Origin: an uncultured Lachnospiraceae bacterium
GTDB lineage: Bacteria; Bacillota; Clostridia; Lachnospirales; Lachnospiraceae
NCBI GenBank assembly: GCA_947630085.1
Contig: CANRGP010000007.1
Coordinates: forward strand, 1 to 44,964
DNA: 44,964 bases
Reading direction: 5' to 3'
Every line of letters starts with the position of its first letter. The stretch's first letter is position 1. Below are positions 8,965 through 34,561 of the stretch, one piece after another. Under the pieces are notes generated by a model, which worked only from the letters and a program-made list of their open reading frames with translations, did not search any database and was not told the DNA's origin. A program made the position numbers and the translations under genes.

Positions 8965-8973
8965 ATTTTCCTC

Positions 8974-12010: not shown

Positions 12011-12022
12011 ATGCCCCTCCCA

Positions 12023-12940: not shown

Positions 12941-13023
12941 GTCAATTCCTTTCTCATTGTCTGAAACGGCGCAGACCATACTGCGGTATCCGATGACCCG
13001 CAGTACGGCCTGCACGCACCGCC

Positions 13024-17800: not shown

Positions 17801-18055
17801 CTTTGCTTTCGCCCCGTAGATTTTGCCTCCGATAGCCGGGAGAAGATTGACTGAAATATAATCATTCTCCAGCCGGATCATATCGTACTCTTTTTCTTCC
17901 GTCTCGTCAAAAATACGATCCGCCACCTGTAAGGGATAAACCTTTCCGCAGGCCCCCTGATACTGCTTCTTTTCGATAAAATGCGGGGCTTTGCTGCCCT
18001 CGCCGACCTTATAGGTCTTTCGTTTGACATTTTCCTGCCATATCCTTGCCTTCAT
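14870..18055 (-). CDS. DUF5107 protein with TPR repeats
   Basis: This large protein of 1061 residues has no signal peptide. Residues about 45-345 match DUF5107, a mutarotase-like beta-sandwich: it opens with LLPAIGGKIYGAK and continues with GPWVSGGAEFNWPQHHRPTT split over two strands and FMWWNNTAVRVH. From about residue 430 to 980 there are repeated helical pairs of the TPR type, for example AYGYFRAAAWQYP, AWEKSMRANDRYG and AEACYKMAEEEPE. Such proteins are common in Firmicutes sugar loci and may be carbohydrate-active, but their activity is not established to my knowledge. I chose the ATG at 18053-18055, which has AGAGGA five bases upstream and gives the usual family start. It is the first gene of the import operon and carries the shared promoter element upstream. 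Confidence 0.82.
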   Translation of the reverse strand: MKARIWQENVKRKTYKVGEGSKAPHFIEKKQYQGACGKVYPLQVADRIFDETEEKEYDMIRLENDYISVNLLPAIGGKIYGAKAKKNGYEFIYENPVVKPALIGLCGPWVSGGAEFNWPQHHRPTTYSPVEYKLRENPDGSVTCFMGELEPLKHMRGMVAVTVYPDSTLVEAKGIVTNCTDKALPFMWWNNTAVRVHSQYKAIFPPDIEYGSDHDRRAIISFPVMKGIFKTARPYDYGDGTDVTWFSEVKVPTSLMIPRGETKMDFLGGYDYKREAGTMIIHDHHTSPGCKMFTWGDADFGRKWCSNLTDNDDRYLELMTGSYTDNQPDFAYIEPGETKEFINCWYPIQGIGNVSNAGMDGAILLEKADRAGSWKVGAVVTRRRPGLRLVLESKGKILFERRGELDPESFWLDEVEVPGEISEEMMTLSLYDGEGELLLLYTPTVKGKKQPPRPRERAPYPKDVYSVEMLYIYGRHLAQYKHGTYQPEDYFLEALRRSPKDYRCNLEMGKIMLERGDFEQAQQYLQTAMERITFENTSPQDSEIYYQMGRLLRLKGELEEAYGYFRAAAWQYPYRSSGYFESACISCTTGHKERAAEELREALKTNAMFYAARTLLAYLTGDVKAVKKIIEEFPLDGSARYTLWLMTGETVGEFVRTHPEYVLDAALLFEKAGLKGEAVRILRDCDNPSMNLLFHLQALTGESAGEASLTQWLPNRLEDIAVLTGGDWRASYILGCLYYDRENYTAARDAWEKSMRANDRYGYTWRNLAIAYYDHLGKPELAHLYMTRAVDLEPGDARLVYELMQIEKEDHISIEKRIETTRTYRDQVYSRDDAWLDAAILRMQTGDYAEAKEMLLEKSFHIYEGGEGKLTKYHRWLHVLMANQAMSGGDYETAEKELDEALNYPLSYGEGRGFLEQDANVHYLKGLLMEITGRPQEAEACYKMAEEEPELVNEILYFTGLCEERVGHKEAALRHYHMLLEEGETYAHHPDRYGYFGVGMESPLPFESNIRKNNMVKAHTLRMLAYLGLREMAACDGEKLKLKALDPDNPLLIFLGSLGIL

Positions 18056-18173: not shown

Positions 18174-18232
18174 ATTGTATAATTTTGCATAATCATAGAA
18201 CAGACGAAATTTATAGGATTATTTCTTAAAAA
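18174..18232 (-). promoter_or_regulatory. Import-operon promoter with shared upstream element
   Basis: The -10 box on the minus strand is TACAAT (18174-18179). Upstream at 18199-18232 lies a 34-base AT-rich element (plus strand begins AACAGACGAAATTTATAGG and ends ATTATTTCTTAAAAA) that matches the element of the ARH promoter at 30 of 34 positions, with the same 19-base gap to the -10 box. No good -35 box is visible, which fits an activator-dependent promoter. This intergenic stretch (18056-18259) also holds the 119-base leader. Confidence 0.7.
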
Positions 18233-18259
18233 GTCGAATGCTTTTATATTTTGCAGGAT

Positions 18260-20899
18260 TTATTGCCGTGTATAGCCGCAGACAGAGCATTTCTTTCCCG
18301 AAGAATCCCATATATGATCCTGCAGTTTATTTCCCTCATACTCGTCGCATATACATTGAGTCTGATGCTGCCGGGCATTGTTCGGGATCGGAACCGCTTC
18401 GCCGGTATGAACATGGGTCTGGCGGATCTGAGGCCCCTCTATCGTGTAGATCCACGGACTCCCGTCCCGGAAAAGCCCGGGGAACATATCGTCGTCAGAA
18501 ATGTCATCCCCCGTGATCAGAATCCCTCCAAAGCTGTCTCTCGGACCCGCATAATAATAATTGTTCTCCGCAGTCAGTCCATCCTTCACGGCGGAACCGA
18601 TCACGGCCCCCCTGCGTGAAGCGGCCATAGTTTCCACATTTCCCATATTCAGGTTGTTGGAAATGCGATAAGTCTCGTTTCCCTTTGTGTACCCGTATCC
18701 TACGATACCGCCGGCTCTCATTCCTTTGTAAACGGATCTGACTGTACCGGTATTCAGACAATCGGTTACATTGGAGATCCAGGCCACGCCCACGACTCCT
18801 CCGACATTGGCGTTGTCCTTTTCTCCGGCTGTTGTCGCCAGAACCGTTCCTTCGTTGGAACAGGCCGTAAGCTCCGTCTGATTCTCTCCGGAGTGCTCGT
18901 CCCTCAGATATCCTGCGACACCGCCCACATAGGAATTCGCCGTCACCGGGCCCGTGTTGCTGCAGCCGCTGATCCGGACAGGAACATTGGGGAAAGCGGC
19001 ATCCGATGTCTTTCCCGTCGCCGTGTAGCCCACAATTCCGCCGACCTGCTGGTCCCCTTTCACCTCTCCCTCGTTGGAGCAGCCCTCTACAAACGCATAC
19101 ATACCCGGCGTATCCGATACGGCGTCGATAATGCCGATTACCCCGCCGATCTGTCTGACATCCTCGGCGATGATCGAAGCCTTATTCACGCATCCTTTGA
19201 TACGTCCTCCGTTCATATAACCGGCCACGCCGCCGATTCTCGGTTTTCCCGCGCTGACAGTCCCCGCGTTGGTACAGTTTGTCACGGCGCTGATCCACAC
19301 CACGCCCGCGATTCCGCCTGCGTTTGCCCGCTCATTTTCCTCCGCGGCAGTCGCCGCAACCTCTCCTGTGTTTGTGCATCCGGAAATCTCCATCAGATTA
19401 TCCGCAATCCGTTCGTCCTTTGCAAACCCAACGATGCCTCCCACATAGGCGTGCGCTGTCACCGGGCCTTCGTTGCTGCAGCCTGCAATCTTTACCGTCT
19501 GGTTGGGAATTGACAGGTCTTTCGCGTTTCCCGTAACGGCATACCCCACGACGCCTCCGATATTTTCATAACCGGCAACCGTCCCGATGTTGGAGCATCC
19601 GCTGACAGTGGTATACAGTCCTGTGGTCCTGGATACCGCGTTGATACACCCGACAACGCCTCCAATATTGCTGCGGTTTTCAGACATGACCGTTCCACGG
19701 TTTGCACATCCCCGTACCGTCCCGGAGTTCATATATCCGACGATGCCTCCCAGCCTGGAGCCGTCTGCGCTCACGGAGCCGGAGTTGGTGCTGTCCGTCA
19801 CTGTGCAGATCCATAACACGCCGACAATTCCTCCTGCATTAGCCCTGGCGCCGTCCCCAGCGACTGTCGACATAACCGCTCCTGTGTTCGTGCATTCGGA
19901 AATCTTCGTCTGATCCTCTGCCATCTGCGCGTTTTTCAGATATCCGGCAATGCCTCCCACATAGGCGTAAGCCGTTATCTTTCCGGAGTTTTTACATCCG
20001 GAAATCAGGATCGGGACGTTGGGACAGGCCTCCTTCTCCCCGCTCTTTTCTCTGCCTGTAACCGTATATCCTACAACTCCTCCTACTTCCTCATATCCCG
20101 TAACCTCCGCCTGATTGGAGCAGTTTTGCACCGTAACCGCCTGATTTTCCCTGGAAGTCACGGCGTACACATATCCGACGATCCCTCCCACATATTTATC
20201 ATTTTGTGCGGCAACCGTACAGCGGTTTATACAGCCTGTGATCGTAGCAGAATTCAGAACGGCCCCGACAATTCCTCCCACTGCGCTTTCCCTGGTCTTT
20301 CCTGCCTCTGACCTGGACGTAATGCTTCCCTCAATCGTCAGATCACGAATCACGGCTCCGTCGATATACCCAAACAGTGCCAAATATCCGCTTCTTCCGC
20401 TAATCTTAATTCCGCTGATCGTATGGCCGGCCCCGTCAAAGGTTCCCATAAAATGCCGGCCCTTTCCGCTGTTGCCGATGGGATTCTGTCCCTCGCAGCT
20501 CTCTAAGTCGATGTCGGCTGTGAGCCGGTATCTGGAGGCTCTCGTCCACGCCGTGTCGTCGTGCATGAGCGCCAGAAGCGTATCGGCGTCCCCGATCAGA
20601 ACGTAGCCCTCCTTATCCGTATCCGCGTCCTCGAACACTCCGTTCTTCCCGCTGGAATCGAGATTCTCGTCATCCGCTTCATAGCCGTCAGGATCTTCTT
20701 CGTCAGGCTCCTCTTCCTCCATCTCTTCTTCGTCAATTTCCTCTTCTATGACTTCATCTGCGATTTCCTTCTCCGCCGCGTCGATGACGGCCTTTTCTGT
20801 ATTTGCGGCCCAAACGATCCCTGGTCTGAGTATTTCCGCACAGAAAAGCATCATTATCAGCAGTACGGCTGTCAAACGCCATCCTTTTCTCTTCCCCAT
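18260..20899 (-). CDS. Secreted GLUG-repeat protein with acidic linker
   Basis: This exported protein of 879 residues has a signal peptide (residues 1-31, ending WAA), then a strongly acidic linker (about residues 40-85), a lead-in domain like those of the other GLUG proteins (YRLTADIDLESCEGQNPIG, then HTISGIKISG), and a long run of GLUG coils (VGGIVGY...CxNxGxV) that should fold as a parallel beta-helix. The coils come in three consecutive blocks of about 170 residues in the same internal order. It ends with a Cys/His element (CIC...H...CSVCG). There is no sorting signal or membrane anchor. AGGAGG at 20907-20912 precedes the ATG. Its first 28 bases overlap the end of the 2443-residue gene, so translation is probably coupled. 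It is the last gene of the surface operon. GLUG motifs are known from surface and IgA-protease-type proteins, but the binding target is unknown. Confidence 0.85.
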   Translation of the reverse strand: MGKRKGWRLTAVLLIMMLFCAEILRPGIVWAANTEKAVIDAAEKEIADEVIEEEIDEEEMEEEEPDEEDPDGYEADDENLDSSGKNGVFEDADTDKEGYVLIGDADTLLALMHDDTAWTRASRYRLTADIDLESCEGQNPIGNSGKGRHFMGTFDGAGHTISGIKISGRSGYLALFGYIDGAVIRDLTIEGSITSRSEAGKTRESAVGGIVGAVLNSATITGCINRCTVAAQNDKYVGGIVGYVYAVTSRENQAVTVQNCSNQAEVTGYEEVGGVVGYTVTGREKSGEKEACPNVPILISGCKNSGKITAYAYVGGIAGYLKNAQMAEDQTKISECTNTGAVMSTVAGDGARANAGGIVGVLWICTVTDSTNSGSVSADGSRLGGIVGYMNSGTVRGCANRGTVMSENRSNIGGVVGCINAVSRTTGLYTTVSGCSNIGTVAGYENIGGVVGYAVTGNAKDLSIPNQTVKIAGCSNEGPVTAHAYVGGIVGFAKDERIADNLMEISGCTNTGEVAATAAEENERANAGGIAGVVWISAVTNCTNAGTVSAGKPRIGGVAGYMNGGRIKGCVNKASIIAEDVRQIGGVIGIIDAVSDTPGMYAFVEGCSNEGEVKGDQQVGGIVGYTATGKTSDAAFPNVPVRISGCSNTGPVTANSYVGGVAGYLRDEHSGENQTELTACSNEGTVLATTAGEKDNANVGGVVGVAWISNVTDCLNTGTVRSVYKGMRAGGIVGYGYTKGNETYRISNNLNMGNVETMAASRRGAVIGSAVKDGLTAENNYYYAGPRDSFGGILITGDDISDDDMFPGLFRDGSPWIYTIEGPQIRQTHVHTGEAVPIPNNARQHQTQCICDEYEGNKLQDHIWDSSGKKCSVCGYTRQ
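18650..20240 (-). repeat. Three tandem GLUG blocks of about 170 residues
   Basis: Within the 879-residue protein three blocks follow one another (roughly 20240-19706, 19705-19190 and 19190-18650). Each has the same succession of coils: a Cys-Asn coil, VGGIVGY or a variant, a TG-containing loop with a Pro-Asn pair, ISGC-N coil, VTA-YVGGIAGYL, a coil ending NQT or NLM, and an ANxGGIVGV-W-S coil. Boundaries are approximate. Confidence 0.7.
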
Positions 20900-23800
20900 A
20901 TGTCTCCCTCCTCTTTCTTCTTTTGGGATGTGCGGCTCCCCTTTTCTACGCGGAAACCCTCATCCGTGAAGGCTGCCGCATCATGAGGCGTAGCCGTCTG
21001 ATCCTCCGGCATATCCAGAGCGTCAAACGGGGTTGCCAGAATGAGCATCGGCATCACGCTCTTGTCATATCTGCACTCGGTACAGATATTTCCGCCGCTA
21101 TATGTGTGCGGCCTCGGATCCTGCTCCTCCTCTCCCAGCACTTTCCCACAGATACACTGCCAGATATGGAGCTCGGAGCCGCCCTGTTCATCCAGAAGCG
21201 GCACACGCATTCTCTTGGCCGCGCTTGCGCATACCAGTTCATGGAAGTAGGTAAGCTCAGGGCCTCTGACTGTGAATGTCCAGATGTCGGTGGTCAGGCC
21301 GGGGAAGTTCGCTTCATCTGCGAGATCGTCCTCTTCGACCTTTGTGCCGTGGGCATCTTCGAGGCCGACACCGGCGCTGTAGTAGTTGTTTCCGGCATCC
21401 AGACCCGTCTCAGAAGCTCCGCCGATGACAGCAGATACGTGGGTCGCACTCCCTGTCACCGTCCCTGCATTATAATTAGCGGAAATTATGTATGTCGTAT
21501 TCTTACCTGCATTATATCCGTAGCCCACAATACCACCCACATATTGCCCGGAAGGCGTTCCGTTTATTGTGCCTGTGTTCATGGAGCCACTTATTTCAGC
21601 CCCGGCCATTCCTCCCGCAACGCCGCCCGCACGGGCGCTCAAGCTATTACTACCACCTGGTTTTGTGCAGCTGATCTCGCCTTCATTGAAGCACTGCGTC
21701 AACCGTGTCTGATTATCCAGGCCATAGCCGGTATCCTTCAGATATCCCACGATGCCTCCAACCGACATACCGCTTGCGGTCACCTTTCCACTGTTTATAC
21801 ACAGGGAAATGGTAATCGGCATATTGATATGCTGCCCAGCAGTGTCCTTAATTCCGGTCTGCGTATATCCGATAATGCCCCCGATCTGTCCGCTTCCCCG
21901 GATCTCGCCGCTGTTGGAGCATTCAGTGATGGAAATTCCCTCATTTGCCGCCTTCAATGTGGTATTGGCATCCAGTTCTCCGACAATACCGCCCACATTC
22001 TGTTCGGTTCCGGTGACCACTCCCTTACTGACGCAGCCCGTAAGGCTGATCGGTACGTCTTTATGCTTGGCATCGATATAGCCTGCCATTCCTCCGACCT
22101 GAGTCTTACCGTTGACAGCCGCTTCATTCACGCAGTTTTCCAGCCTTACCTCACCCTGCACATAGAGGTATCCGGCGATGCCTCCTACATATTTTGCGGA
22201 CGAAGCGTTGACCACACACCGATTCACACAGTTCTCGATGGTAACGCCGGACGGGCATGCGCCGATCAGACCGCCGACAGACTGTGTGCCTGTCGAAGAG
22301 ATTGTTCCTTCCACAGTCAGGTTTCTGATCTCCGCATTGTTCACATATCCGAAGAAACCGATATTTTGGGCTCCGCTGATATTGATTCCACTGACGGTAT
22401 AGCCGCCGCCGTCGAAGCTTCCCTTAAACGCATGACTTCCATTCGTTCCGATCGGCTTCTGACCGCTCTGTCCGGCAAGATCAATGTCCTTGACAAGGAT
22501 GTAGCTGTCTGCCAGCGCATCCGCATCTCCGCTCGCTGCTTTTTCCATCAGTGCCAGCAGGCTTTCTGCGCTCGAAAGCATATAGCGTCCTTCGCTGTCT
22601 CTCGGATTGGAAGTATCCAGGTGGCAGACGGTACAGACGGTGCTTCCGTCCGCAAATTGGTGCGGTTCAAGCTCTCCCGTCGGCTCTTTGCAGATACAGC
22701 ACAGCTGATGCATTGCCAACGGATCCTTTTCATACGGAATCCAGACTGATCCAACGTGAGTATGGAACGTCTTCAGCTGTGGTCCCTCCGTCGTGTAAAT
22801 CCAGATGTCTTCTCTCGCATACAGTCCGGCAAATGACTCTCCCGCAGAAACATCAGCCTCTTCCACTTTCTGACCACGTCCTGTATTCGCTTCAGAGCCG
22901 GCGGTATAATAGTTGTTCTCCGTCGTTAATCCGCTCACCGTCGCGTAGCCGATTATGCTATAGGCGCTGCCGCTCGTGCCGCTGACGGTCCCTTTATTGA
23001 AGCAGAAAGAAACTCCATATTCTCCGCTTCCTGAATTATAACAATTTCCGACAATACCACCCACACGCTTGCCTATGCCGGTGACTGAACCAGCATTCAT
23101 ACAATCTTCTATGCTGGCATAAGCAATCGAACCTGCGATTCCGCCAACGTCCGAATATGTGCTGCTGCTGCCGGCAGTCGTAGTGACCACTCCTGTATTC
23201 AGGCAGCCGGACAGCTTCATCTGGTCGGCTTTTCCAAATCCTCTGTCTCGCAGATATCCCGCAATGCCGCCGGCAGTACTATTGGAAGCGGTTATTTTTC
23301 CATGATTCTGACAGGACCGGATCATTATCGGGACATTTCCGGTCTGGCCATTTCCGGTCTCTGCCAGCCCGATGATGCCGCCAACCTGCTTGTCGCTTCC
23401 GGTGATCTCCCCGTCATTACGGCAGCCTTCGATGTGGATTGACCGACCGGAGGGCGACAGATCGGCCGCGATATATCCAACGATTCCCGCAACATTGCTC
23501 CCACCTGTAATTTTGCCCTCATTTGCACAGTTTTCAATCCTCGATTCCGCCCCCGCGTAGAGCAGTCCGACAAGACCGCCTATGTTTTCCGCGCCCTCGG
23601 CTGTCACCGTACACCGGTTCGTGCAATTGATCAGTGTGATGCTTCCCGGCGTCGCGCCGATGAGCCCTGCGACGGACTGGCTGCCGGTAGATATTATGCT
23701 TCCCTCTATGGTCAGATCCCGGATCGTCGTATTAATTGCGTATCCGATGAAGCCGGCGTAATCACCTTCACTGCTGATCCTGATCCCGCTGATCGTATGA

Positions 23801-26800
23801 TCATTGCCGTCAAGGGTTCCGTAAAACGCTTTGTCATGACTTCCGATCGGCCGCTGCCAGCCGCCATCCGGCAGGGTTATATCGGCATCCAGGATATAGG
23901 AAACCGGGTGATCATGGCTTCCCCAGAGACCTTCGTTCGCCATCAGCTTCTGCAGATCGTCCGCCGTCCGGATCACAGATCTGCCTGCGGAATCGGTTGT
24001 TCCGTTCCACTCTGTCAACGACGCTTCCTTATATCCGCATCCGCTGCAGCTCCGGCGGCCGCCAACAAACTCCATTGTATGAGCGCTTTGCTCTCCGACA
24101 GCCGTCTCCGGCGCCAGGCAGATACAAAGCCTCTGGTGCGTGTGCTCATAATCCGCTTTCACGGGCAGCAGCCCGCGCTCGTTTTCTGCCTGATGCACAT
24201 GAAAGACCGCAAGTTCAGGGCCGGCAGTCGTATACATCCAGATATCCGGATGGCTGCCTTCCAGCAGGTCCTCGAATAGGTTTACATCCGCGATCGTTCC
24301 CTCCGGCAGGTCGATGCGTGTTCCATGAAGGATATTACTGTTTCCATGTTTCCCCTCGCCCTTGCTGAAGAAATTGTTCTCCAACTGCAGGCCTTCTTTC
24401 CCACCGTGCTCCTCGTCCATCGCGTACCCTGCGATGGCGCAGGTCGAGCCGGCCGGCCCGTCGATCTCGCCGGCGTTGTAGCACCAGGCGATCCAGTACT
24501 TCGCATCCACGCTGGCCGTGTAGCCAGAACCTGTGATGCCGCCGACCCGCTTGCCTGCGGAGGCAACACGTCCTGTATTCATGGCATAAGCAATGTTGGA
24601 GTAGGCGACCGCGCCTGTAATGCCGCCTGCGTATGCCTGATCGCCCGCCGCAGCGGTTGACGTTATATTCCCTTCATTCAGGCACTGGTAAAGCGTCGTC
24701 TGATCTTTCGTTATGCTATAGCCGATATCCCGAAGATATCCGGCGATGCCGCCCACATAGCTTGTGGCTGTGATATTGCCGGAGTTCCGGCACAGGCTGA
24801 TGAAAATGTCTTCGTTATTATTATTTTTTCCCGTATCCGACTGACCAAGTATGCCGCCGACGTACTGCGTGCCGCTCACGTCGGCCGTATTGTCGCAGCC
24901 TCTCACCGTGATGCTGTCGTCGTCTATCGTCCCGTTGCCTTCGATGTAGCCGATGATTCCGCCTACATAGCTTCCGCCTGCGATCTCCGCCTCATTGCGG
25001 CAATCCTCGATCCGGGATTTTCCTCGGGTGTAGAGCTGTCCGGCAATGCCGCCCACATAGTTCGCGTCTTTCGCCGCAATGTATATGCGGTTCACGCAGT
25101 TTTGAATGGTGACACTGGTAGGGCAGGCGCCGACGAAACCGCCGACCGAACGGCTGGCGCCGCCGTCCGGGACAAATGTGACTGTCCCTTCCAGCGTCAG
25201 GTTTCGTATCACGGCCCCGTCCACATAGCCGAAGAAGCCCAGATTCGCCCCGCCGCTCAGATCAATGCCGCTGACCGTATGTCCGCCGCCGTCAAAGGTT
25301 CCCTTAAAGCGGTGTCCGCTGTCGCCGATAGGCCGCTGCATCTCATACTCATCGAGACTGATATCCGCCGTCAGGAGATAATTCGCATCCTCTCCCCAAA
25401 GGGTATAGTTTTCGATCAGCTGAATCAGATCCCCGGCACATTCAATGATCCGTTTCCCGTTTTCCGTCCGGCCGTCCCACTCCGCAAGAAGTTCCGGCTG
25501 CCAGGAGCACTCCGTACAGGTTTTTCTGCTGTCTGTCCATTCCCATGAATGCTCTCCCTGGTTTCCGACGGCGGTACCCGGATCCAGGCATATGCACATT
25601 CTCTGATGATGAAAGGGATCCGATCTGACCGGCATAGCTTTCCGCTCCGCCTCCGGAGTATGAATATGGAAGCGTACCAGCTCCGGGCCGTAAATCGTAT
25701 AAATCCACAAATTTTTCTGAGCGTAAAGAGACTCGAAAGCCGATTCGTCCGCAATCTCGCCCGTCGCCACGGCAATGCTTCCGCTGGCATCCGCAGGGCC
25801 CTGACTGTAATAATTATCCGACGCAGTCAGTCCCTCCGATGCCGCGGAACCGATAACCGCTCCTTTTCTTCCGGATGCGGTACTCGTTACACTTCCCGCA
25901 TTATAGTTTCCTGTAATTGCGTATGTCTCGCCGCCTGCTGTGTAGCCATATCCCACGATTCCTCCGGTTCTAAAACCATCGGAAGTAACCGTTCCGGTGT
26001 TCATGGATCCGGATATATTGGAAATCCATGCGACCCCGACAATTCCTCCGACATTGGCGTTTGCCTTTTCTCCGGAGGCCGTAGCCGTCACTGCTCCTTC
26101 ATTGAGGCAGCCGGACAGCCAGGTCTGATTTTCTCCGCTGCGATAATCTCTCAGGAATCCGGCGATGCCACCGACATAAGAATCGGCGGTTACAGGAGCG
26201 CTGTTCCTGCAGTCCTCAATCCTGATCGGTATATTTACCGACGCGCTGCCTCCCTGACTTGCCGTAACCGTATAGCCAACAATTCCGCCAACGTTCTGGT
26301 AGCCCTTGACGGCCGCCTCATTCGCGCATCCGCTTATACTGGCCGCCCTGCCCTGATCTGCAGATACATCGTAAATCTGTCCGATAATACCGCCTACATA
26401 TCTGCCTGCGTCCGCCGTCACCTCGCACCGGTTCACACAGTTTTCAAGAGTGATGCCGTTGATACTTGCTCCCACCAGTCCCCCTACCGATGCGGCATTT
26501 CCTTCAGCCTTAACGGTTCCCTCCACAGTCAGGTTGCGGATGACCGCCTTTTCCGTATAGCCGAACAGCCCCAGGTACCCGGAACCGCTGAGGGCAATTC
26601 CGCTGATCGTATATCCGTTTCCGTCAAATACGCCTCTGAAATGCTTCCCTCTCGCATTGATTCCGATAGGGCTCTGTCCCTCGCATCCCTCCAGATCAAT
26701 GTCGTTCGCCAGCTTATACATGGTTCCCTCTCCCCATAGTCTGCTGTCACTCATCAGATCCAGAAGTGCTTCCTTGCTTTTGATCATCCGGTATCCGCCC

Positions 26801-28203
26801 TCATACGGCATCCGGTCGCTGTATCCGCAAAGCCGACAGGTTTTGTAATACTTGTCCGTATCGTTCCAAAGATGGGGCTCCGCGGTCGTTTCCACATCGC
26901 ATTCCGCACATCTGCGGCTGTGAGTCTTATCATCTATGGCTTCCAACACATAGCTGTGCCGGTGCTGCTGCGAAAGCTGCGGTCCGTTTGCCGTATTGAT
27001 CCATCTGCCTCCGATTCCGCAGAGCTTAAGAAAATCACTCTCGGTAAAATACGTGTGCGGAACATAGACTGCCGCAAAACGGTTGGCAATCCCCTCGCTG
27101 TAAAAATTGTTCTCCGCGATCAGACCCTCATCTATGCCCTCTCCGATAATTGGCCCTCTCGCCGTTTCCACTTCATTGGATACCTGTCCCGCGTTATAAT
27201 TTCCGGAAATGTGATACTGCACGCCGCTTTCTGTATAGCCGTATCCTACGATGCCGCCTGTATTTTCTCCGATGGAACTGACCCGTCCGGTATTCATGGA
27301 ACTCAGCACGTCAGTGATTCGGGCGTTTCCCACAATGCCGCCCACGCAGGCTTCCTTTTCGGATGACGTGGACTGTACTTCGCCCTGGTTCAGACATTCT
27401 GTGATGACCGTCTGATCGGGACGCAGCGTACTTCCCTCCAAACAGCCGGAAATGCCTCCCACATTGACCTGGGCGCTTATCTTACCCGTATTTTGTCCGG
27501 CAGAAATACGAATAGGCAGTCCTGCTCCATAGCCGAGCAAGCCGCCGGAATATTCATATCCTTTTATTTTGCTTTCATTGATACAGTTTTCGATACTGGC
27601 CGTCTGACCACTGTCCGCCGCGTCTGCGCACAGGTATCCGACGATGCCTCCCACGTAGTTTACATTTCTGGCCGTGATCCGACACCGGTTCACACAGTTA
27701 TCGATTCTGACGCCGTTGACTCCGACTCCTACAATACCGCCGACTGCCGTTTTTCTGTCACCGGCTCCCCGGGGCGCAGGCGCGGTGGAGATCACCGTTC
27801 CTTCCGTAGTCAGATCCCGGATACCGGCATTTTCCACATGGCCGAACAGCCCAAGGCCGTCAAGACTGCCATGTAGCCTGATACCTCGGATCGTACAGCC
27901 TCTTCCCCAAAAATCCCCCATGAAATGCTGCCCGGAATTTCCTATGGGCTTCTGACCTTCGCAGCCGCCCAGATCAATATCGTTCGCCAGGCAGAACTTC
28001 ATACCGCTTCCCCACAGCTCCTCATGATTCATAAGGTACAGCAGATCTTCCTTTGTCTTAATCACCCGGTAGCCCAGGGCATCCGTTTCCGTGAGTCTCT
28101 GCTCCTGTGATTCTTCCGCTCTGGCGCACGACGGTGGTTTCAGTACCATCAGAAGCCCGAAAACAATCAGTGTTCCCGCAATACAACATAAAAACCGTTT
28201 CAT
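20872..28203 (-). CDS. Giant secreted five-module GLUG protein
   Basis: This exported protein of 2443 residues is the largest gene in the window. A signal peptide of about 30 residues (ending CARAEE) is followed by five similar modules starting near residues 43, 469, 916, 1407 and 1872. Each module has a lead-in (for example YRMIKSKEALLDLM then LANDIDLEGCEGQSPIG), a FDGxGxTxSGI segment, about ten GLUG coils of the VGGIVGY and IxxCxNxGxV type, and a closing ENNYYSAG-like motif with W-Y-T-GP-L. After each module comes a Cys/His element. The coils should stack as a beta-helix. The tail (about residues 2375-2443) is Ala/Thr/Asp-rich and then basic, with no LPXTG, SLH or membrane anchor. GGAGG lies upstream of the ATG. 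It is co-transcribed with the other surface genes. A role in binding a host or dietary glycoprotein is inference. Confidence 0.85.
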   Translation of the reverse strand: MKRFLCCIAGTLIVFGLLMVLKPPSCARAEESQEQRLTETDALGYRVIKTKEDLLYLMNHEELWGSGMKFCLANDIDLGGCEGQKPIGNSGQHFMGDFWGRGCTIRGIRLHGSLDGLGLFGHVENAGIRDLTTEGTVISTAPAPRGAGDRKTAVGGIVGVGVNGVRIDNCVNRCRITARNVNYVGGIVGYLCADAADSGQTASIENCINESKIKGYEYSGGLLGYGAGLPIRISAGQNTGKISAQVNVGGISGCLEGSTLRPDQTVITECLNQGEVQSTSSEKEACVGGIVGNARITDVLSSMNTGRVSSIGENTGGIVGYGYTESGVQYHISGNYNAGQVSNEVETARGPIIGEGIDEGLIAENNFYSEGIANRFAAVYVPHTYFTESDFLKLCGIGGRWINTANGPQLSQQHRHSYVLEAIDDKTHSRRCAECDVETTAEPHLWNDTDKYYKTCRLCGYSDRMPYEGGYRMIKSKEALLDLMSDSRLWGEGTMYKLANDIDLEGCEGQSPIGINARGKHFRGVFDGNGYTISGIALSGSGYLGLFGYTEKAVIRNLTVEGTVKAEGNAASVGGLVGASINGITLENCVNRCEVTADAGRYVGGIIGQIYDVSADQGRAASISGCANEAAVKGYQNVGGIVGYTVTASQGGSASVNIPIRIEDCRNSAPVTADSYVGGIAGFLRDYRSGENQTWLSGCLNEGAVTATASGEKANANVGGIVGVAWISNISGSMNTGTVTSDGFRTGGIVGYGYTAGGETYAITGNYNAGSVTSTASGRKGAVIGSAASEGLTASDNYYSQGPADASGSIAVATGEIADESAFESLYAQKNLWIYTIYGPELVRFHIHTPEAERKAMPVRSDPFHHQRMCICLDPGTAVGNQGEHSWEWTDSRKTCTECSWQPELLAEWDGRTENGKRIIECAGDLIQLIENYTLWGEDANYLLTADISLDEYEMQRPIGDSGHRFKGTFDGGGHTVSGIDLSGGANLGFFGYVDGAVIRNLTLEGTVTFVPDGGASRSVGGFVGACPTSVTIQNCVNRIYIAAKDANYVGGIAGQLYTRGKSRIEDCRNEAEIAGGSYVGGIIGYIEGNGTIDDDSITVRGCDNTADVSGTQYVGGILGQSDTGKNNNNEDIFISLCRNSGNITATSYVGGIAGYLRDIGYSITKDQTTLYQCLNEGNITSTAAAGDQAYAGGITGAVAYSNIAYAMNTGRVASAGKRVGGITGSGYTASVDAKYWIAWCYNAGEIDGPAGSTCAIAGYAMDEEHGGKEGLQLENNFFSKGEGKHGNSNILHGTRIDLPEGTIADVNLFEDLLEGSHPDIWMYTTAGPELAVFHVHQAENERGLLPVKADYEHTHQRLCICLAPETAVGEQSAHTMEFVGGRRSCSGCGYKEASLTEWNGTTDSAGRSVIRTADDLQKLMANEGLWGSHDHPVSYILDADITLPDGGWQRPIGSHDKAFYGTLDGNDHTISGIRISSEGDYAGFIGYAINTTIRDLTIEGSIISTGSQSVAGLIGATPGSITLINCTNRCTVTAEGAENIGGLVGLLYAGAESRIENCANEGKITGGSNVAGIVGYIAADLSPSGRSIHIEGCRNDGEITGSDKQVGGIIGLAETGNGQTGNVPIMIRSCQNHGKITASNSTAGGIAGYLRDRGFGKADQMKLSGCLNTGVVTTTAGSSSTYSDVGGIAGSIAYASIEDCMNAGSVTGIGKRVGGIVGNCYNSGSGEYGVSFCFNKGTVSGTSGSAYSIIGYATVSGLTTENNYYTAGSEANTGRGQKVEEADVSAGESFAGLYAREDIWIYTTEGPQLKTFHTHVGSVWIPYEKDPLAMHQLCCICKEPTGELEPHQFADGSTVCTVCHLDTSNPRDSEGRYMLSSAESLLALMEKAASGDADALADSYILVKDIDLAGQSGQKPIGTNGSHAFKGSFDGGGYTVSGINISGAQNIGFFGYVNNAEIRNLTVEGTISSTGTQSVGGLIGACPSGVTIENCVNRCVVNASSAKYVGGIAGYLYVQGEVRLENCVNEAAVNGKTQVGGMAGYIDAKHKDVPISLTGCVSKGVVTGTEQNVGGIVGELDANTTLKAANEGISITECSNSGEIRGSGQIGGIIGYTQTGIKDTAGQHINMPITISLCINSGKVTASGMSVGGIVGYLKDTGYGLDNQTRLTQCFNEGEISCTKPGGSNSLSARAGGVAGGMAGAEISGSMNTGTINGTPSGQYVGGIVGYGYNAGKNTTYIISANYNAGTVTGSATHVSAVIGGASETGLDAGNNYYSAGVGLEDAHGTKVEEDDLADEANFPGLTTDIWTFTVRGPELTYFHELVCASAAKRMRVPLLDEQGGSELHIWQCICGKVLGEEEQDPRPHTYSGGNICTECRYDKSVMPMLILATPFDALDMPEDQTATPHDAAAFTDEGFRVEKGSRTSQKKKEEGDIWGREKDGV
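20907..20912 (-). promoter_or_regulatory. Ribosome site inside the preceding gene
   Basis: AGGAGG on the minus strand lies seven bases before the ATG of the 879-residue gene and within the codons for the basic/acidic tail (KKEEGD) of the 2443-residue protein. This decides the start and explains the odd C-terminal tail of the giant protein. Confidence 0.75.
21068..28075 (-). repeat. Five homologous GLUG modules of 425-500 residues
   Basis: Module starts are near 28075, 26798, 25458, 23985 and 22590 (decreasing, minus strand). The one-module protein at 29528-30814 and the protein at 18260-20899 carry the same module type, so the operon holds seven related modules in all. The copies are clearly diverged at the protein level, so the amplification is not recent, although some stretches such as GGIVGYGYT recur exactly. 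Confidence 0.75.
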
Positions 28204-28227
28204 TTACCCCCACCTCCATTCAGGCTC

Positions 28228-28261
28228 CGGAAGGCATCTGTCTGCATACAGACGCCCTCCG
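28228..28261 (-). other. Imperfect hairpin between surface genes
   Basis: GTCTG (28240-28244) and CAGAC (28249-28253) form a core stem, extended by GGC/GCC and CGGA/TCCG with small bulges. It lies between the anchored protein gene and the giant gene. No T-run follows on the minus strand, so it is unlikely to be a full terminator; it may slow decay or tune expression of the giant gene. Confidence 0.45.
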
Positions 28262-28272
28262 AAAAACACCGT

Positions 28273-29523
28273 TTACTTACCTTTCTTCCTTTTTGCAATC
28301 ACAACTGCTGCTATGACGCAAATCACGACAATACCGATTCCCGCAGGAAATCTCCAGTCCAAAGACGACGAAGCCGCACTCTCCACGTTTTCTTCCCCCT
28401 CAATCCCCGATTCCAGCGCGTTCGATGCGTCCTCTTCTGTCTCCTCCTGCGACTGCGCATCGGTTGATCGTTCTTCTTCCGTTTCGATGCTTTCCTCTTT
28501 CGTCTTCTCTCCTTCGCTCTCCTTTTCCGGCAGAGCTTCCTCCAACCCCAAAACAATATCGAAGTTAGCCGCGATATCGTCAAAATCGGCGTTTTCCTGC
28601 ACCTCCTCGGATGCCCGCATGACCGTATCCTCTACGGTCTTAAAATATTTGCCCGGCGTATACGAGCAGGTCCACTCAAACTTATCGATTTTTCCGGACT
28701 TCCAGATCAGCTCAAACCCTTCCATATCCGTATCCTGCGTACATCCATAAATATTTCGTATGTGCGCGTTATCCGTGATCTCAATCTCCGTCCTTCCAAG
28801 TATGATTCCGTCCGGATAGGCGGCGGAGCCGTGAAGCACCGATACATCCGCATATCCCCCTACCTTGATGTGTGCGGTTCCGGTATATGTTCCGAGAAGC
28901 TGCCGGGAAAAGGCGACAATATAGATTTTGCTTCCGGACAACACCGTAATATGAGTATCCGCATCGCTTTCAAACGGAGGATCTCCCACGCCTTTCTGGT
29001 AGCCGCCCAATATCGTAAACGCCTTTGCGATAGAACCGCCTGTCAGCTGATCCCCCTCTATGGTCACTCCCTCCCCTACGGTAACCGGATTGTGCTGCCC
29101 GACCACCAGGAGGTACGCGCCGAGGGCGTTGAAATTCATATACTCAAACCGCGTGTCTCCATAGCAGATGAAGCGGCAAGCTTCAAAATCATAAACCGCT
29201 CCTTCTTCGCGCCAGTCCACGCCGTCATACACCGACGTAAAAGTCACGCTTCCCGTAAAAGGAATCGCATAGTCGAACGTTTGTGACTGGGTAAACGGGC
29301 CGCAAATGACAATCGTAGCGTCGTTTTCCAAATCCAGGGCGCTGTAAGCCGAAATCAGCGTCCCCACCGCCTGATCCGGGGAGGAACCATCGCCGGTCCC
29401 CCCGTCTTTCAGATATACCACATTTCCCTCTCCTGCCGCCAGGGTCTCCCTGACCGGATTCACAAGCATCAGACACAGCGCCGTCACGGCTGTTCCGAAA
29501 AGAAGTCCCGATATCTTTTTCAT
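28273..29523 (-). CDS. Membrane-anchored beta-helix surface protein
   Basis: This exported protein of 416 residues has a signal peptide (MKKISGLLFG start, ending TLAAGE). It opens with VVYLKDGGTGDGSS, the same motif as the SGNH lipoprotein of the other operon, and continues as a single beta-helix-like domain to about residue 265. A very acidic Glu/Ser/Thr-rich stalk of about 100 residues follows. A single membrane helix (AGIGIVVICVIAAVVIA) and a basic KRKKGK tail anchor it with the bulk outside. I chose ATG 29521-29523, which has GGAGG nine bases upstream and follows the previous stop by four bases; a TTG at 29541 would overlap it. It is the only surface protein in this operon with a clear membrane helix at its end, so it may tether the anchor-less GLUG proteins; that is inference. 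Confidence 0.82.
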   Translation of the reverse strand: MKKISGLLFGTAVTALCLMLVNPVRETLAAGEGNVVYLKDGGTGDGSSPDQAVGTLISAYSALDLENDATIVICGPFTQSQTFDYAIPFTGSVTFTSVYDGVDWREEGAVYDFEACRFICYGDTRFEYMNFNALGAYLLVVGQHNPVTVGEGVTIEGDQLTGGSIAKAFTILGGYQKGVGDPPFESDADTHITVLSGSKIYIVAFSRQLLGTYTGTAHIKVGGYADVSVLHGSAAYPDGIILGRTEIEITDNAHIRNIYGCTQDTDMEGFELIWKSGKIDKFEWTCSYTPGKYFKTVEDTVMRASEEVQENADFDDIAANFDIVLGLEEALPEKESEGEKTKEESIETEEERSTDAQSQEETEEDASNALESGIEGEENVESAASSSLDWRFPAGIGIVVICVIAAVVIAKRKKGK

Positions 29524-29527
29524 GATC

Positions 29528-30814
29528 CTAATCCTCCGCAAACACCTTCAATACCGGGCCCTTAGTCGTAGATTTCCACGCGCTGCTTCCGTAAAGCCCG
29601 TCAAGCTTGTCTTTCTTTCCCAGATCCGCCGCCGAAACGGACGTTGCTCCGAATTTGTCGTCAGGCCCCTGGCTGTAGTAATTATCCTCCGCCGTCAGGC
29701 CGTCCTTTACGGCCGACCCGATGACGGCTCCCTTTCTGGCTGCGGAGCTGCTTTCCACCTTGCCGCTGTTATAGCTGGTGCATATGGAGTATTCCGCCTC
29801 ATCCTTGGTATATCCATATCCCACGATTCCGCCGGTGCGCATCCCGATGGAACTGACCTCCCCGGTATTCATGCAGTCGGAAACTCTGGAGATCCATACG
29901 ACTCCGGCCACTCCCCCGATATTGGCGTTGACCTTATCCCCGGTAACGGTCGATACCACCTTGCCTTCGTTGAGACATTTACTGAGCTCCGTCTGATTCT
30001 CTCCGGATAAATTGTCCTTCAGATATCCGGCGACTCCTCCTACATAGGAGTCCGCCGTTATATTTCCGCTGTTCCGGCATTCTGTAATCACAATCGGTGT
30101 ATTGGGAATTGATGTGTCCTTGGCGTTGGCAGTAACCGTATAACCCACAATTCCGCCCACCTCCTGGAATCCCTGGATTTTGCCCTCATTGACGCATCCC
30201 TTAATCGTGACCTCCATCCCTTCTTTGGAGGATACGGCGTACACATAGCCGGCAATTCCGCCCACATATTTTACGTTCTCCGCAGAAACCGTGCATTTAT
30301 TTACGCAGTTCTCGATAGTGACGCTGTTCAGGCAGGCTCCCGCAAGACCGCCCACGGATGTCGCCGCTTTTTCGGAACCGCCGGCCTCCTTCGCTGTGGA
30401 GGTAACAGTGCCTTCAACCGTCAGATCCTTTATCGTCGCTTTCTCCACATAGCCGAACAGTCCCAGGTAGCCTCCGGATCCCTTTATGCTGATCCCCTTG
30501 ATCGTATGTCCGTCTCCGTCGAAGATTCCCATAAAATGCTTGCCTTTTTTGTTGTTCCCGATGGGATTCTGCCCTTCGCTTCCTTTCAAGTCGATGTCGG
30601 CGGTAAGCCGGTATTTGGCGTCTTTTCCCCAAAGGCTGTCGTCTCTCATCAGAGAAAGAAGCTCATCCTGGGAAGTAATCAGCCGGTATCCCTCGCTGTC
30701 CGTCTCCCCGCTCCACTTTGCGGCTCTCGCCTGTATCGGCGCAGAAACGGCCAGACAAAGGCAAACCGCGATGAGAAGTCCTGCTCCCCTGTGCTTCATG
30801 TTCTTTTTTTTCAT
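29528..30814 (-). CDS. Secreted one-module GLUG protein
   Basis: This exported protein of 428 residues has a signal peptide (ending ARAAK) and one full GLUG module: lead-in YRLITSQDELLSLM and YRLTADIDLKGSEG, then FDGDGHTIKGI, coils such as VGGIAGYVYAV, IKGCVNEGKI and VGGIVGYTVT, the closing EDNYYSQGPDD and a final TTKGPVLKVF. It stops just where the Cys/His element begins in the larger proteins. AAGGAGGGAG precedes the ATG. It is the second gene of the surface operon, 19 bases after the ARH gene. It is the simplest form of the module and probably shows the ancestral unit. No anchor is present. The ligand is unknown. Confidence 0.85.
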   Translation of the reverse strand: MKKKNMKHRGAGLLIAVCLCLAVSAPIQARAAKWSGETDSEGYRLITSQDELLSLMRDDSLWGKDAKYRLTADIDLKGSEGQNPIGNNKKGKHFMGIFDGDGHTIKGISIKGSGGYLGLFGYVEKATIKDLTVEGTVTSTAKEAGGSEKAATSVGGLAGACLNSVTIENCVNKCTVSAENVKYVGGIAGYVYAVSSKEGMEVTIKGCVNEGKIQGFQEVGGIVGYTVTANAKDTSIPNTPIVITECRNSGNITADSYVGGVAGYLKDNLSGENQTELSKCLNEGKVVSTVTGDKVNANIGGVAGVVWISRVSDCMNTGEVSSIGMRTGGIVGYGYTKDEAEYSICTSYNSGKVESSSAARKGAVIGSAVKDGLTAEDNYYSQGPDDKFGATSVSAADLGKKDKLDGLYGSSAWKSTTKGPVLKVFAED

Positions 30815-30833: not shown

Positions 30834-33047
30834 TTACCATCTGTCACTGACTGTAACAATCTGTGCATCATGAATATACAAGGTACCTGTTCCGAAATCC
30901 ATTGTGACCGTGTTGGAATCATCTTCCAGAATCACAGGAATATATACGCAGTCGCAGGTATTTCCTTCTACTGTTTCTCCCGTTTTATAGAACGGGATCG
31001 AAGCATAGGCCTCGCCGCCTACTGTCATCGGTACATTCATCATTCTTCCGTTAGGATTGGAAAAGGTCAGTTTCAGATAAACCTCGGCATCCGCCTTTCC
31101 CTCAATCTCAAATTCAACCGTTTTGCTGTATCCGGAATCCTCGGAATCTCCCCGGATCGTAACGCAGTCTCCCAGCGGCAGGCTCTCCAGAACATGGACG
31201 ATCGTGATGTCGTCGATCCTGGCGTTGCGCCTCTCGTTGGTTCCCTCCGGCACAAGGGCGCCGATTTCCATGGTTTCCGCCACGGCCCGAAAAGTGAAAT
31301 TCCGTTTTGCATACGCCTGTTGGTCATCCACGGTAACGAAGCTGTATTCCTGTGCTCCGGGCTCTCTGGCGAATAATCTGGCGCTGGTTTTGGCCGTAGA
31401 CCGCACATAGGCGGTCATCCGGTATTTCGCCCCGGGCTTCAGTCCGGTCAGTGTCGTATAGAGACCGTTTTCCGCCGTCTGACTGCCGCTTATACGGGCG
31501 GAATAGTCGCCTGTGAATCCGGGCTCCGCCAGCTCTGTCCCTCCGATAATCGTCCATCTGTCCAGACTTCCGCTTTCAAAATCCTCCACAAACACACATT
31601 CGTATCCCCGCAGCGGATCCTTGGGTATGTAGTAATTTCCGTCCTCGATCTTTCCTCCCTTTTCCAAAAGCAGATGCTCGAAATTCTGCTGATACAGTGC
31701 GACCAGGTCCTGGATCGGCATGATTTCCGGAAGGCCCGGGCAATACATATAATACATGGCCAGTGAACCCGGATACCCCTGATTGATCACTACCCCCTGC
31801 CCATCCTGCCAGATTTTTTCATTGACAGGAGCATTCCTTTCATCTTCCAGGAAATCCATGCCGTCTATGATCCCTACGATGCTGAGTCCGGTGGGAGTGG
31901 TGCTGTCTCCGCCGTGCCCGGCGAGAGACATGATTTTGCAGGTTTCATAGTAATCGCCGTCCCCGTACAGCAGGCCCAGGACAATGAAAGCACAGTTGAT
32001 GCTGGTTTCTCCCATCATGTCTCCTTCCAGATCATAATGGCTCCGGTAGCAGTTCCTCTCCGCGTTGACCACGGCCCTCCGCCAGTCATCCGGATATTGC
32101 TCTTTCAGAGCAAATACCTCGTCGATAACCTGCCTCTGCCAGCAGCCTTCCGGAAGAACAACCTCGGCTTCCCGCAAAAGCGTGGGAACATCGTCCTCAA
32201 AATAGGCCATCGCGTACATCGCCGCAAAATATTTCAGCCAGAGAACGGGGTCGCAGTCGCTGGTGACGCTTCCGAATGTGTCGGCCAGCTCCACGGCCAG
32301 GTTGGGCATCCCGGCGGCCGACATTCCCAGGGTTTCGTTTCCAATATAAGGTTCTCCATAAACCGTATATTTATTGCCGAACTCGGCACTCCCCGAGAAG
32401 CCGGGCAGATAATCATTATTTTTCATCAATCCGAAAGCGCCGTTGCTGCGGTTCCCGCCGCCCATATCGTATACGTCGTAATTCACCCATCCGTCCTTGA
32501 TTGCCTTGCTGGAAAAAGTGCCGTATCGCTCAAAAGCATCAGCCAGAATGTACTGATCCAGAATATCGATGCTGTAATCGTCATCATTCCAGACCTCCCA
32601 CAGCCCTGTCTCTTCATTCATCAGCAGCTTGTCCTGATGCTTGTTGTGGGGATTGGGATCCGCATATGGGCCGTTGCAGATTTCAAACCATTCCTCCGGC
32701 AGGGCCGTGCGAGGCGTTCCATCTGAATCATAGACAAACTCGTATCCGGAGAGAAATCCGACAAACTGGCCCAAAAGACCAGAAGTCGTCTTGTCAATAT
32801 AATCCTCTATCGAGATCACGTTGTACTCCTCAGACGGAGACGATTCCTGCACCGTATCCTCCTCCGGTACCCATGCGGCGGACGCCTCCTGCGTCTGCTC
32901 TCCACTTTCCGCCTTATCCGTTCCCGGTGAAATCGTCCCTTCTGTTCCGGAACCGGATGCCTGGGTTCCCGTATCCGGCGCATTGGAGCAGGCCGTCGTA
33001 CCGGCCACCAGGGAACATATCAGAAGCATACTGATAATCCGTTTCAA
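30834..33047 (-). CDS. Secreted ADP-ribosylglycohydrolase-fold lipoprotein
   Basis: This exported protein of 737 residues has a signal peptide and a likely lipobox (GTTAC, Cys20), then an acidic/Ser-rich tether. Residues about 80-480 resemble the ADP-ribosylglycohydrolase (ARH/DraG) fold: LLGQFVG near the start, an acidic NDDDYS at 154-159 in the place of the metal-binding DDT motif, and AGHGGDSTTPTG near residue 380 in the place of the usual GGDTDT. The second metal motif is thus altered. The C-terminal 250 residues look like two beta-sandwich modules of the carbohydrate-binding type (FESGSLDRWTI; then VTIRGDSEDSGYSKTVEFEI). The start is TTG, ten bases after GGGAGG; no in-frame ATG fits. It is the first gene of the surface operon. 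Whether it removes ADP-ribose or acts on a sugar is not known. Confidence 0.75.
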   Translation of the reverse strand: MKRIISMLLICSLVAGTTACSNAPDTGTQASGSGTEGTISPGTDKAESGEQTQEASAAWVPEEDTVQESSPSEEYNVISIEDYIDKTTSGLLGQFVGFLSGYEFVYDSDGTPRTALPEEWFEICNGPYADPNPHNKHQDKLLMNEETGLWEVWNDDDYSIDILDQYILADAFERYGTFSSKAIKDGWVNYDVYDMGGGNRSNGAFGLMKNNDYLPGFSGSAEFGNKYTVYGEPYIGNETLGMSAAGMPNLAVELADTFGSVTSDCDPVLWLKYFAAMYAMAYFEDDVPTLLREAEVVLPEGCWQRQVIDEVFALKEQYPDDWRRAVVNAERNCYRSHYDLEGDMMGETSINCAFIVLGLLYGDGDYYETCKIMSLAGHGGDSTTPTGLSIVGIIDGMDFLEDERNAPVNEKIWQDGQGVVINQGYPGSLAMYYMYCPGLPEIMPIQDLVALYQQNFEHLLLEKGGKIEDGNYYIPKDPLRGYECVFVEDFESGSLDRWTIIGGTELAEPGFTGDYSARISGSQTAENGLYTTLTGLKPGAKYRMTAYVRSTAKTSARLFAREPGAQEYSFVTVDDQQAYAKRNFTFRAVAETMEIGALVPEGTNERRNARIDDITIVHVLESLPLGDCVTIRGDSEDSGYSKTVEFEIEGKADAEVYLKLTFSNPNGRMMNVPMTVGGEAYASIPFYKTGETVEGNTCDCVYIPVILEDDSNTVTMDFGTGTLYIHDAQIVTVSDRW

Positions 33048-33136: not shown

Positions 33137-33196
33137 ATTTTATATTTTTGTCTTTGTATGTAACAGTCGAAAATTATAAGATTATTTCTTGAAAAA
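33137..33196 (-). promoter_or_regulatory. Surface-operon promoter with shared upstream element
   Basis: The -10 box on the minus strand is TAAAAT (33137-33142). The upstream element lies at 33162-33196 (plus strand begins AACAGTCGAAAATTATAAG and ends ATTATTTCTTGAAAAA), 19 bases from the -10 box. It matches the element at 18199-18232 in 30 of 34 positions. The weak -35 region suggests control by an activator that binds the element. Confidence 0.7.
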
Positions 33197-33220
33197 TTAA
33201 ACTTTTTCTACATATATACC

Positions 33221-33433: not shown

Positions 33434-34561
33434 ATGAATATACGCATAATCATTGAACCCGAATATCAGGGCTCTTTCTGGTGTAAGGAAACCATAAAGG
33501 GATTATCCAATCAGGCTTATCTGCGCAAGATCCAGCTTACAGAAATCGGGGAACCGGATATCCGGCAGCTAAAGGGAGGCAGACCTGGGGAGATCATCAC
33601 CATCATTGGCACCTCGATCAACTGGATCAATCGTATCGCCTCCCTGATTCAGGAAAAAGGATGCCTGTGTCTTCTGGTGACCGGCGACCAGAACTCCAAC
33701 GAGCTGAACCGCACGAACATTCTTCTTTTGGACTATCAGAACAGTATGTATACGCTCCTGTCACATCTGCGGGACGCGGGAAACGAGCGAATCGCGCTGT
33801 TCGGCGTCAACCCGAGTTCTTATGCGGATTCCGTCAAAAAAACATATTTTCCATGGAAAGACGATATTTACTACAATTACGGTTCCATCGCCAACTGTAC
33901 CGAGCAGATCCTGGACAGAATCGAGAATTATTCCGCAGTAATCTGCGTCAATGATACCGCCGCTGTCTATCTTCTCCAGTTTCTTCTGAAAAGAGGGGTG
34001 CGGATCCCCGATAACCTTCATCTGATCAGCTTTGGCGATTCCTTTCTGTCCAGGCTCATGTCTCCTTCGATCAGCAGCGTCGAACAGGATTTCCGTGTCC
34101 TGGGCGAAGAAGCCGTTCACGTCTGTTCTTTCCTAGTTAAGAACCCGATGCTCACTGTCAACGCTTTCATAAAATGCCCTTTACGTATCCGGGATTCTAC
34201 CATGGTGGACGGATTTCCGCCTGTCTCGGACTACCGGAGCCCGGAATCCCCGGATATCAATTTCTATGAGGATGAGGACGTAGTCACCATACAAACTTTA
34301 AACCGCCTCCTGGTAGAAAGCGACGAACTGGATATGGAGATCCTCCAATGCCTCCTCAACGGGGACACCCAGGAAAAAACCGCCGAGCGGATGAATCTGT
34401 CCCTGTCGTCCCTGCGCTATCGCATCCGCAAGCTGCGAACCTATTTCCCCGGTATCTCGCAAAATGAACTGCTGCATCTTATCCGGTACTATCTCCCCAC
34501 AGGGGCCCTGGCCCGGGCAGGGGAACAGAAAAAGGAAGAAAATCGGGAAAAAAACAGCTGA
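33434..34561 (+). CDS. Regulator: LacI-type sensor with C-terminal HTH
   Basis: This cytoplasmic protein of 375 residues starts directly with a periplasmic-binding-protein-like sensor domain of the LacI/GalR type (residues about 1-255). Typical parts are AGNERIALFGVNP, YSAVICVNDTAAVYLLQFL, RIPDNLHLISFGDS and LMSPSISSVEQDF. The LacI N-terminal helix-turn-helix and hinge are absent. Instead a helix-turn-helix lies near the C-terminus (about 296-345): ILQCLLNGDTQEKTAERM followed by LSLSSLRYRIRKL, similar to LuxR- or PucR-type domains. The promoter lies just upstream, so an N-terminal domain has not simply been missed. It is transcribed away from the surface operon, and the palindromes in its own promoter suggest autoregulation. 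It is the best candidate for controlling the two operons; the inducer would be a sugar. Confidence 0.75.
   Translation: MNIRIIIEPEYQGSFWCKETIKGLSNQAYLRKIQLTEIGEPDIRQLKGGRPGEIITIIGTSINWINRIASLIQEKGCLCLLVTGDQNSNELNRTNILLLDYQNSMYTLLSHLRDAGNERIALFGVNPSSYADSVKKTYFPWKDDIYYNYGSIANCTEQILDRIENYSAVICVNDTAAVYLLQFLLKRGVRIPDNLHLISFGDSFLSRLMSPSISSVEQDFRVLGEEAVHVCSFLVKNPMLTVNAFIKCPLRIRDSTMVDGFPPVSDYRSPESPDINFYEDEDVVTIQTLNRLLVESDELDMEILQCLLNGDTQEKTAERMNLSLSSLRYRIRKLRTYFPGISQNELLHLIRYYLPTGALARAGEQKKEENREKNS

Follow-up and report, generated by a model that had tools for sequence, protein, structure and literature searches.

A conserved promoter element before neighbouring surface and import operons of an uncultured Lachnospiraceae bacterium, and its candidate regulator

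Two operons on the minus strand of a 44,964-nucleotide stretch of DNA from an uncultured Lachnospiraceae bacterium (the window; contig CANRGP010000007.1 of GenBank assembly GCA_947630085.1) are each preceded by a copy of the same promoter element. Site A lies between the gene of a putative regulator, here called REG (33434-34561, plus strand), and the divergent minus-strand operon of surface genes (operon A), which is named ARH/GLUG after its first gene and its repeat proteins. Site B occupies the interval that separates the last GLUG gene (end 18260) from the gene of a DUF5107 protein with TPRs, the first of an import operon (operon B). We asked how far the element is conserved and whether REG is likely to bind it. 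The assembly of the window is labelled G000 below; G307, G317, G310, G338 and G300 are congeners, and G271, G432 and G378 belong to other genera. The features are as follows, with the basis of each in brackets.

33162..33190, minus strand: core of site A, AAGAAATAATCTTATAATTTTCGACTGTT (28-mer search, pair alignment, cross-genome conservation)
33191..33205, minus strand: upstream conserved stretch of site A, the box 1 region, AAAGTTTAATTTTTC (8-site alignment, three-way footprint)
33137..33142, minus strand: predicted -10 box of promoter A, TAAAAT, 19 bases after CTGTT (sequence)
18199..18227, minus strand: core of site B, AAGAAATAATCCTATAAATTTCGTCTGTT (28-mer search, pair alignment; ortholog in G307)
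18228..18242, minus strand: upstream conserved stretch of site B (8-site alignment)
18174..18179, minus strand: predicted -10 box of promoter B, TACAAT, 19 bases after CTGTT (sequence)
33434..34561, plus strand: REG, proposed cognate regulator, with a LacI/CcpA-like sensor (residues 1-258) and a C-terminal helix-turn-helix (HTH) (Pfam, PDB profile, AlphaFold2, fold comparison)
30834..33047, minus strand: first gene of operon A (ARH), lipoprotein-like, with ADP_ribosyl_GH and CBM_4_9 domains and a TTG start at 33047 (Pfam, N-terminus)
18260..30814, minus strand: remainder of operon A, proteins of 428, 422, 2443 and 879 amino acids (Pfam; same order in G307; presumably a single transcript)
14870..18055, minus strand: first gene of operon B, DUF5107 with TPRs (Pfam)
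5171..14835, minus strand: remainder of operon B, a solute-binding protein (SBP), two permeases, DUF6259, a GDSL lipoprotein and an aldose 1-epimerase (Pfam; same order in G307; probable extent)

Results

The initial annotation of this DNA had reported a 34-base element shared by the two promoters. The match of 30/34 positions holds, in register and on the minus strand at both places (33162-33195 and 18199-18232); the interval given earlier, 33162-33196, was one base too long. Among 60 pairs of dinucleotide-shuffled upstream regions the best 34-mer match was 24 (mean 20.2), and in a separate test with 30- and 45-base windows a match as good as the observed one appeared in none of 400 shuffles. 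The window contains two matches to a degenerate 28-mer of the element, against 0 expected (100 shuffles). At up to three mismatches the whole assembly holds two copies (reversed control, 0), and no third was found at that threshold in its 2.06 Mb (111 contigs, 79% complete). Both promoters carry, as had been noted, a TAnAAT -10 box at 19 bases, counted after CTGTT, namely TAAAAT at A and TACAAT at B. A good -35 box is likewise absent from both, the best hexamer at spacers of 15-19 bases being GTTACA at A (4/6, spacer 16) and one with 2/6 at B. In the site alignment the conserved block extends upstream past the element as first marked, to about 33205 (A) and 18242 (B). No Rfam family scored at gathering level in the window.

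Orthologs of REG (E<=1e-40) are present in 5 of 26 genus genomes, the window's own included; the other four are 80, 73, 66 and 59% identical to it. With a matcher built on the two window sites, a single site was located in each of the G307 and G317 REG loci, and nothing in the G310 locus. A 30-base matrix of four sites, built without -10 columns, found four more in longer stretches: the second site of G307 (34.4), two in G310 (26.5 and 21.1) and one in G338 (29.4), the best chance match scoring 16.4. When an 8-site sequence-only model was run over the 26 genus genomes, with up to 150 first-look candidates scored per genome, nine sites in six genomes reached at least 46.3 bits and nothing else exceeded 18.6 bits; eight of these nine built the model and match by construction, only the G300 site being new. 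At E<=0.1 the model listed 14 of the 26 genomes, and nine matches of at most 18.6 bits were dropped, among them a third match in the window's assembly (14.2 bits). The six site-bearing genomes are all five with a REG ortholog and one without, G300, whose site stands at a contig end, ahead of the same gene start as the second G310 site.

Lack of conservation in related loci had been named with the initial annotation as a ground for refutation, and the element passed this check: together with its -10 spacing it is present at orthologous operons in four REG-bearing congeners and ahead of another gene in one further congener, and it recurs more weakly in another genus. The claim that one regulon joins the ARH/GLUG and DUF5107 operons draws its best direct support from G307, where the arrangement is that of the window: ARH and DUF5107, the first genes of the two operons, are each preceded by a site. 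The order in G317 is REG, site, ARH, contig end; G310 has sites before DUF5107-SBP-permeases and before a GH43-like gene, and G338 has one before DUF5107. A site lies directly upstream of 4/5 close DUF5107 orthologs (at least 67% identity, own included) and of all three ARH genes seen in these loci. G000, G307 and G317 have REG divergent from a site, whereas in G338 and G310 it is 11-18 kb away. The candidate targets are the ARH/GLUG operon, the DUF5107/importer operons and the GH43-like gene. The 15-kb separation of the two sites, remarked on earlier, carries less weight than it might seem to, since operons A and B are tandem neighbours on one strand. We also rejected a reading of non-conservation that came from a strict pattern (up to three mismatches), which matched the own genome only among 299 family genomes: the pattern was too strict, and only one other congener had been drawn.

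The extent of the site can be seen when three REG-ARH intergenic regions are aligned: 46/67 gap-free columns from box 1 through the -10 box are identical, versus 47/169 outside (p=1e-8). TAnnnT follows TGTT by 19 bases in all 11 sites of the genus and G271. For six of them (two in G307, one in G317, two in G310, one in G338) this distance is independent of the search, whereas the models that found the G300 and G271 sites had -10 columns. The spacer between element and -10 box varies in sequence and is constant in length, and the best -35 hexamers at spacers of 15-19 bases match 2-4/6 at the eight genus sites, so that the promoters look in need of help. The best-conserved part of the element is its CTGTT end. 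The element is not palindromic: in the six sites examined the best 8-bp inverted repeats differ in place and spacing, and the two sites with 8/8 repeats (the first of G310 and the second of G271) have them in different register. Comparison of box 1 with the stretch 34 bases on gave an agreement of 0.40, against a higher 0.46 at offset 38 and 0.2-0.38 at most other offsets, the two G271 rows being out of register in this test.

REG begins with its sensor. The LacI/periplasmic-binding-protein-like domain occupies residues 1-258, and in the fold comparison, whose rows span these sensor residues only, residue 1 aligns with LacI residue 62. The N-terminal LacI HTH (PF00356) is absent from the Pfam matches of REG and from the families listed for 10 homologs. 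In an AlphaFold2 model made from 11 sequences (predicted local distance difference test, pLDDT, 84.7; an earlier 5-sequence model was poor, 59.2) the sensor is followed by a helical HTH region at 281-370, a block with pLDDT 88-96. The last ~90 residues have weak matches to the models HTH_24, HTH_30, AsnC-type and GerE; the 11 families listed for 11 REG members at E<=0.05 include no AraC model, in a search where the HTH was not taken alone. Upstream of the gene, TTGAAA (33344-33349) and TATAAT (33366-33371) form its likely promoter, and between this and the REG start lies an inverted repeat, GTATACTT-GGGA-AAGTATAC (33379-33398), which was not seen in the G307 or G317 sequences inspected and could be a site controlling REG. 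The 137-amino-acid open reading frame (ORF) after REG (34668-35081) aligns only with residues 152-260 of a 277-amino-acid ORF at the same place in G307, and is possibly a shortened gene.

A REG-like protein (E<=1e-15) occurs in 6 of 397 family genomes, own included. In a draw of 383 genomes from the order, relatives at E<=1e-35 were found in two, the own genome and G271, and in the starting genome only within the genera of G432 (1/11), G271 (1/6) and G378 (1/4). In G271, a single contig, REG is 38% identical, and a 70-column genus matrix scored 25.6 before SBP-permeases, divergent from REG, and 14.8 before DUF5107; the next-best score in ten loci was 13.4, in L089. None of 400 shuffled pairs reached the 45-base match between the two G271 promoters. 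In G432 and G378 (REG ~27%) the promoters beside REG share CGTCTAAAA ... GTCTTT-like boxes ~34 bases apart. By a three-block genus model the promoter of the ABC gene in G432 ranks first in its 15-kb locus (20.5 versus 12.6 for the next; 9.8 when the middle block is included), its two-promoter 45-base match being reached by 12/400 shuffles. In the G378 locus one promoter takes first (12.8) or second (13.3) place, and the best two-promoter match there (51/400 shuffles) is not the motif. Our R1 model gave no match in loci L085 or L086, nor any at E<=10 in the controls L090, L091 and L092, which hold distant DUF5107 genes (35-43% identity) with no close REG adjoining; a fourth match, G317:C5 (48%), fell outside the locus scan.

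Over the 397 family genomes the 8-site model matched nine at E<=0.001, the own genome being one of them. Four of these matches (27.7 bits; G363, G424, G148 and G262) are one identical segment in four genera and were not counted; nor were four others (21.0-23.8 bits), which are known only from short stretches. The segment belongs to a 120-base stretch (L058, about 1500-1550) identical in G363, G424 and G262, once as the reverse complement, and overlapping in G148; with a pemK RNA ~1 kb away in the G363 locus, it is probably a shared mobile element. In locus L055 (10976-13174) a single 732-amino-acid ORF combines a LacI HTH at its N-terminus, a sensor domain and, at its C-terminus, a solute-binding-protein domain; it is apparently an unusual fusion of a repressor with the binding protein of a transporter.

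Turning to the genes under the sites, GLUG repeats were found by Pfam in the 428-, 2443- and 879-amino-acid proteins of operon A. At the C-terminus of the G317 homolog of the 422-amino-acid protein (L083, 365-1585) an IPATG-like motif is followed by a hydrophobic stretch and a basic tail, which together we take to be a sortase-like anchor; the DUF5107 frame of G317 opens ~20 bases past the stop of this homolog. In the window the DUF5107 gene likely starts at 18055 rather than 18115, since its alignment with the G307 and G338 relatives begins at residue 21. The stretch of the GDSL lipoprotein gene (5838-9011) is 94.4% identical to G307 DNA over 3174 bases, against 74% and 78% in the adjoining alignments, and looks like the product of recent recombination or transfer.

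Discussion

Our results give good support to a real and conserved element and regulon that unite the two operons. Linkage to the sites and co-conservation with them suggest REG as the protein that binds, and it is the likely regulator of the element-bearing operons, for which the initial annotation had proposed none by name. We propose, with a probability of about two in three, that the element is an operator for REG over the -35 position, from which REG activates the surface and import operons together. The sensor would bind a sugar or oligosaccharide akin to what the linked ABC importer carries, and REG would occupy a non-palindromic site of ~45 bp ending where a -35 box would lie. There it would help RNA polymerase to use the TAnnnT -10 box 19 bases on, and the ARH/GLUG and DUF5107/ABC operons would be switched on together. 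Activation is our inference from the position of the site, whose span, from the -35 region to ~60 bases above the presumed start, would be the place of an activator that touches polymerase.

Some observations count against this proposal. REG and the sites share one gene cluster, so their co-occurrence partly reflects linkage; G300 (93% complete) has a site and no REG was found in it, and in G317 the DUF5107 gene (81% identical), which stands on a different contig, lacks a site. Promoter-like pairs lie inside the element (TCGACT-16-TATAAA at B, TAGAAA-18-AATAAT at A), and therefore the start sites are uncertain and other starts possible. Outside the genus, the G271 sites are weak by the R1 model, which over 122 kb gives them scores of 16.6 (E=8.5e-4) and 10.0 bits (E=0.1), and unrelated matches of 14.9 and 12.9 bits rank between them; without the middle block neither is in the top four of its locus. 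At L087-L089, the loci of three more distant REG-like genes (23-26%), no convincing site was found.

REG could also bind the element and repress, covering the -35 region and blocking polymerase until sugar releases it, in the manner of LacI-type repressors. Relatives with a LacI/CcpA fold, to which the REG sensor is similar, are mostly repressors; an operator over the -35 suits repression too, and the inner promoter-like pairs at A and B would be covered. We nevertheless regard repression as unlikely, given -35 hexamers of 2-4/6 at the eight genus sites and a fixed 19-base distance to the -10 box, which is more typical of activators. Somewhat smaller again is the chance that the element is a genuine activator or repressor site of a protein encoded elsewhere, with REG merely nearby and acting on something else. 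Such a protein would account for G300, and for G310 and G338, where REG is not divergent from the site and lies ~11-18 kb off; it fits poorly with sites in 5/5 genus genomes that have REG and none above 18.6 bits in 20/21 without it, and with the reappearance of sites in G271 beside a REG only 38% identical.

A global regulator site, such as a CodY box, or a promoter for an alternative sigma factor is very improbable. The left part of some sites resembles the CodY consensus (13/15 in the second G310 site), but the 11 sites range from 9 to 13/15, with 11/15 and 10/15 at A and B and 9/15 in G271, and what is conserved best is the CTGTT end. Sites of either kind should recur through the genome, where we find at most two strong ones per genome, and the -10 box is of the ordinary sigma-A kind. 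We give as little credence to a functionless origin, in which the two promoters descend from an old duplication and have yet to diverge: both sites do lie in one gene cluster of one genome, but across genomes the spacer varies while the element and its distance are kept, and the intergenic alignment shows a distinct conserved island.

Activation by REG being the reading we prefer, a wider proposal can be attached to it, towards which we are more doubtful than confident: REG and its homologs may form an undescribed class of glycan-responsive activators, with a LacI-like sensor, a C-terminal non-AraC HTH, and an operator in which box 1 and the CTGTT box form a pair of CGTCT-like direct repeats at a distance of 34 bp, with a middle box, 19 bases above the -10 box. 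By eye, the direct-repeat layout is also present before DUF5107 and ABC-transporter genes beside the ~27% REG homologs of G432 and G378. What the window offers is a candidate operator-regulator pair for a glycan-uptake cluster of uncultured Lachnospiraceae rich in unknown families (DUF5107, DUF6259, GLUG proteins and a lipoprotein with an ADP-ribosylglycohydrolase-like domain), together with a candidate activator layout of LacI-like sensor, C-terminal HTH and long operator. If REG binds, the regulon links these genes functionally as a unit, and the REG ligand would be a clue to the system's substrate.

Among known regulators, XylR of Escherichia coli has a LacI-like sensor first and its DNA-binding domain last, and activates sugar operons. 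The REG-family profile matches the sensor part of XylR (PDB 4fe4, 4fe7; E=1.4e-7), and the REG model has the same order, sensor and then C-terminal DNA-binding domain. The C-terminus of XylR is an AraC-type domain, whereas no AraC model is among the families listed for REG members. In class-II-type activator promoters the site ends at the -35, at a fixed distance from the -10 box, and the -35 is poor. The element resembles them in ending at the -35 position, in its fixed -10 distance and in its poor -35, with activation here inferred, and differs in its long conserved block of ~45 bases. Among the literature matches listed, titles and abstracts describe neither the element nor a REG-type layout (LacI-like sensor, C-terminal HTH, long operator); the XylR of PMC12285236 is a ROK protein, different from the E. 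coli type. As in the local sugar regulons of the LacI family, a regulator with a LacI/CcpA-like sensor adjoins sugar-uptake operons, but REG lacks the N-terminal LacI HTH. LacI-family operators are given in PMC4052901 as palindromes, mostly with a central CG, unlike the non-palindromic element linked to REG. In conclusion, a local glycan regulon with a neighbouring regulator is of a familiar kind, and the pairing of REG with its putative operator is a new form of it.
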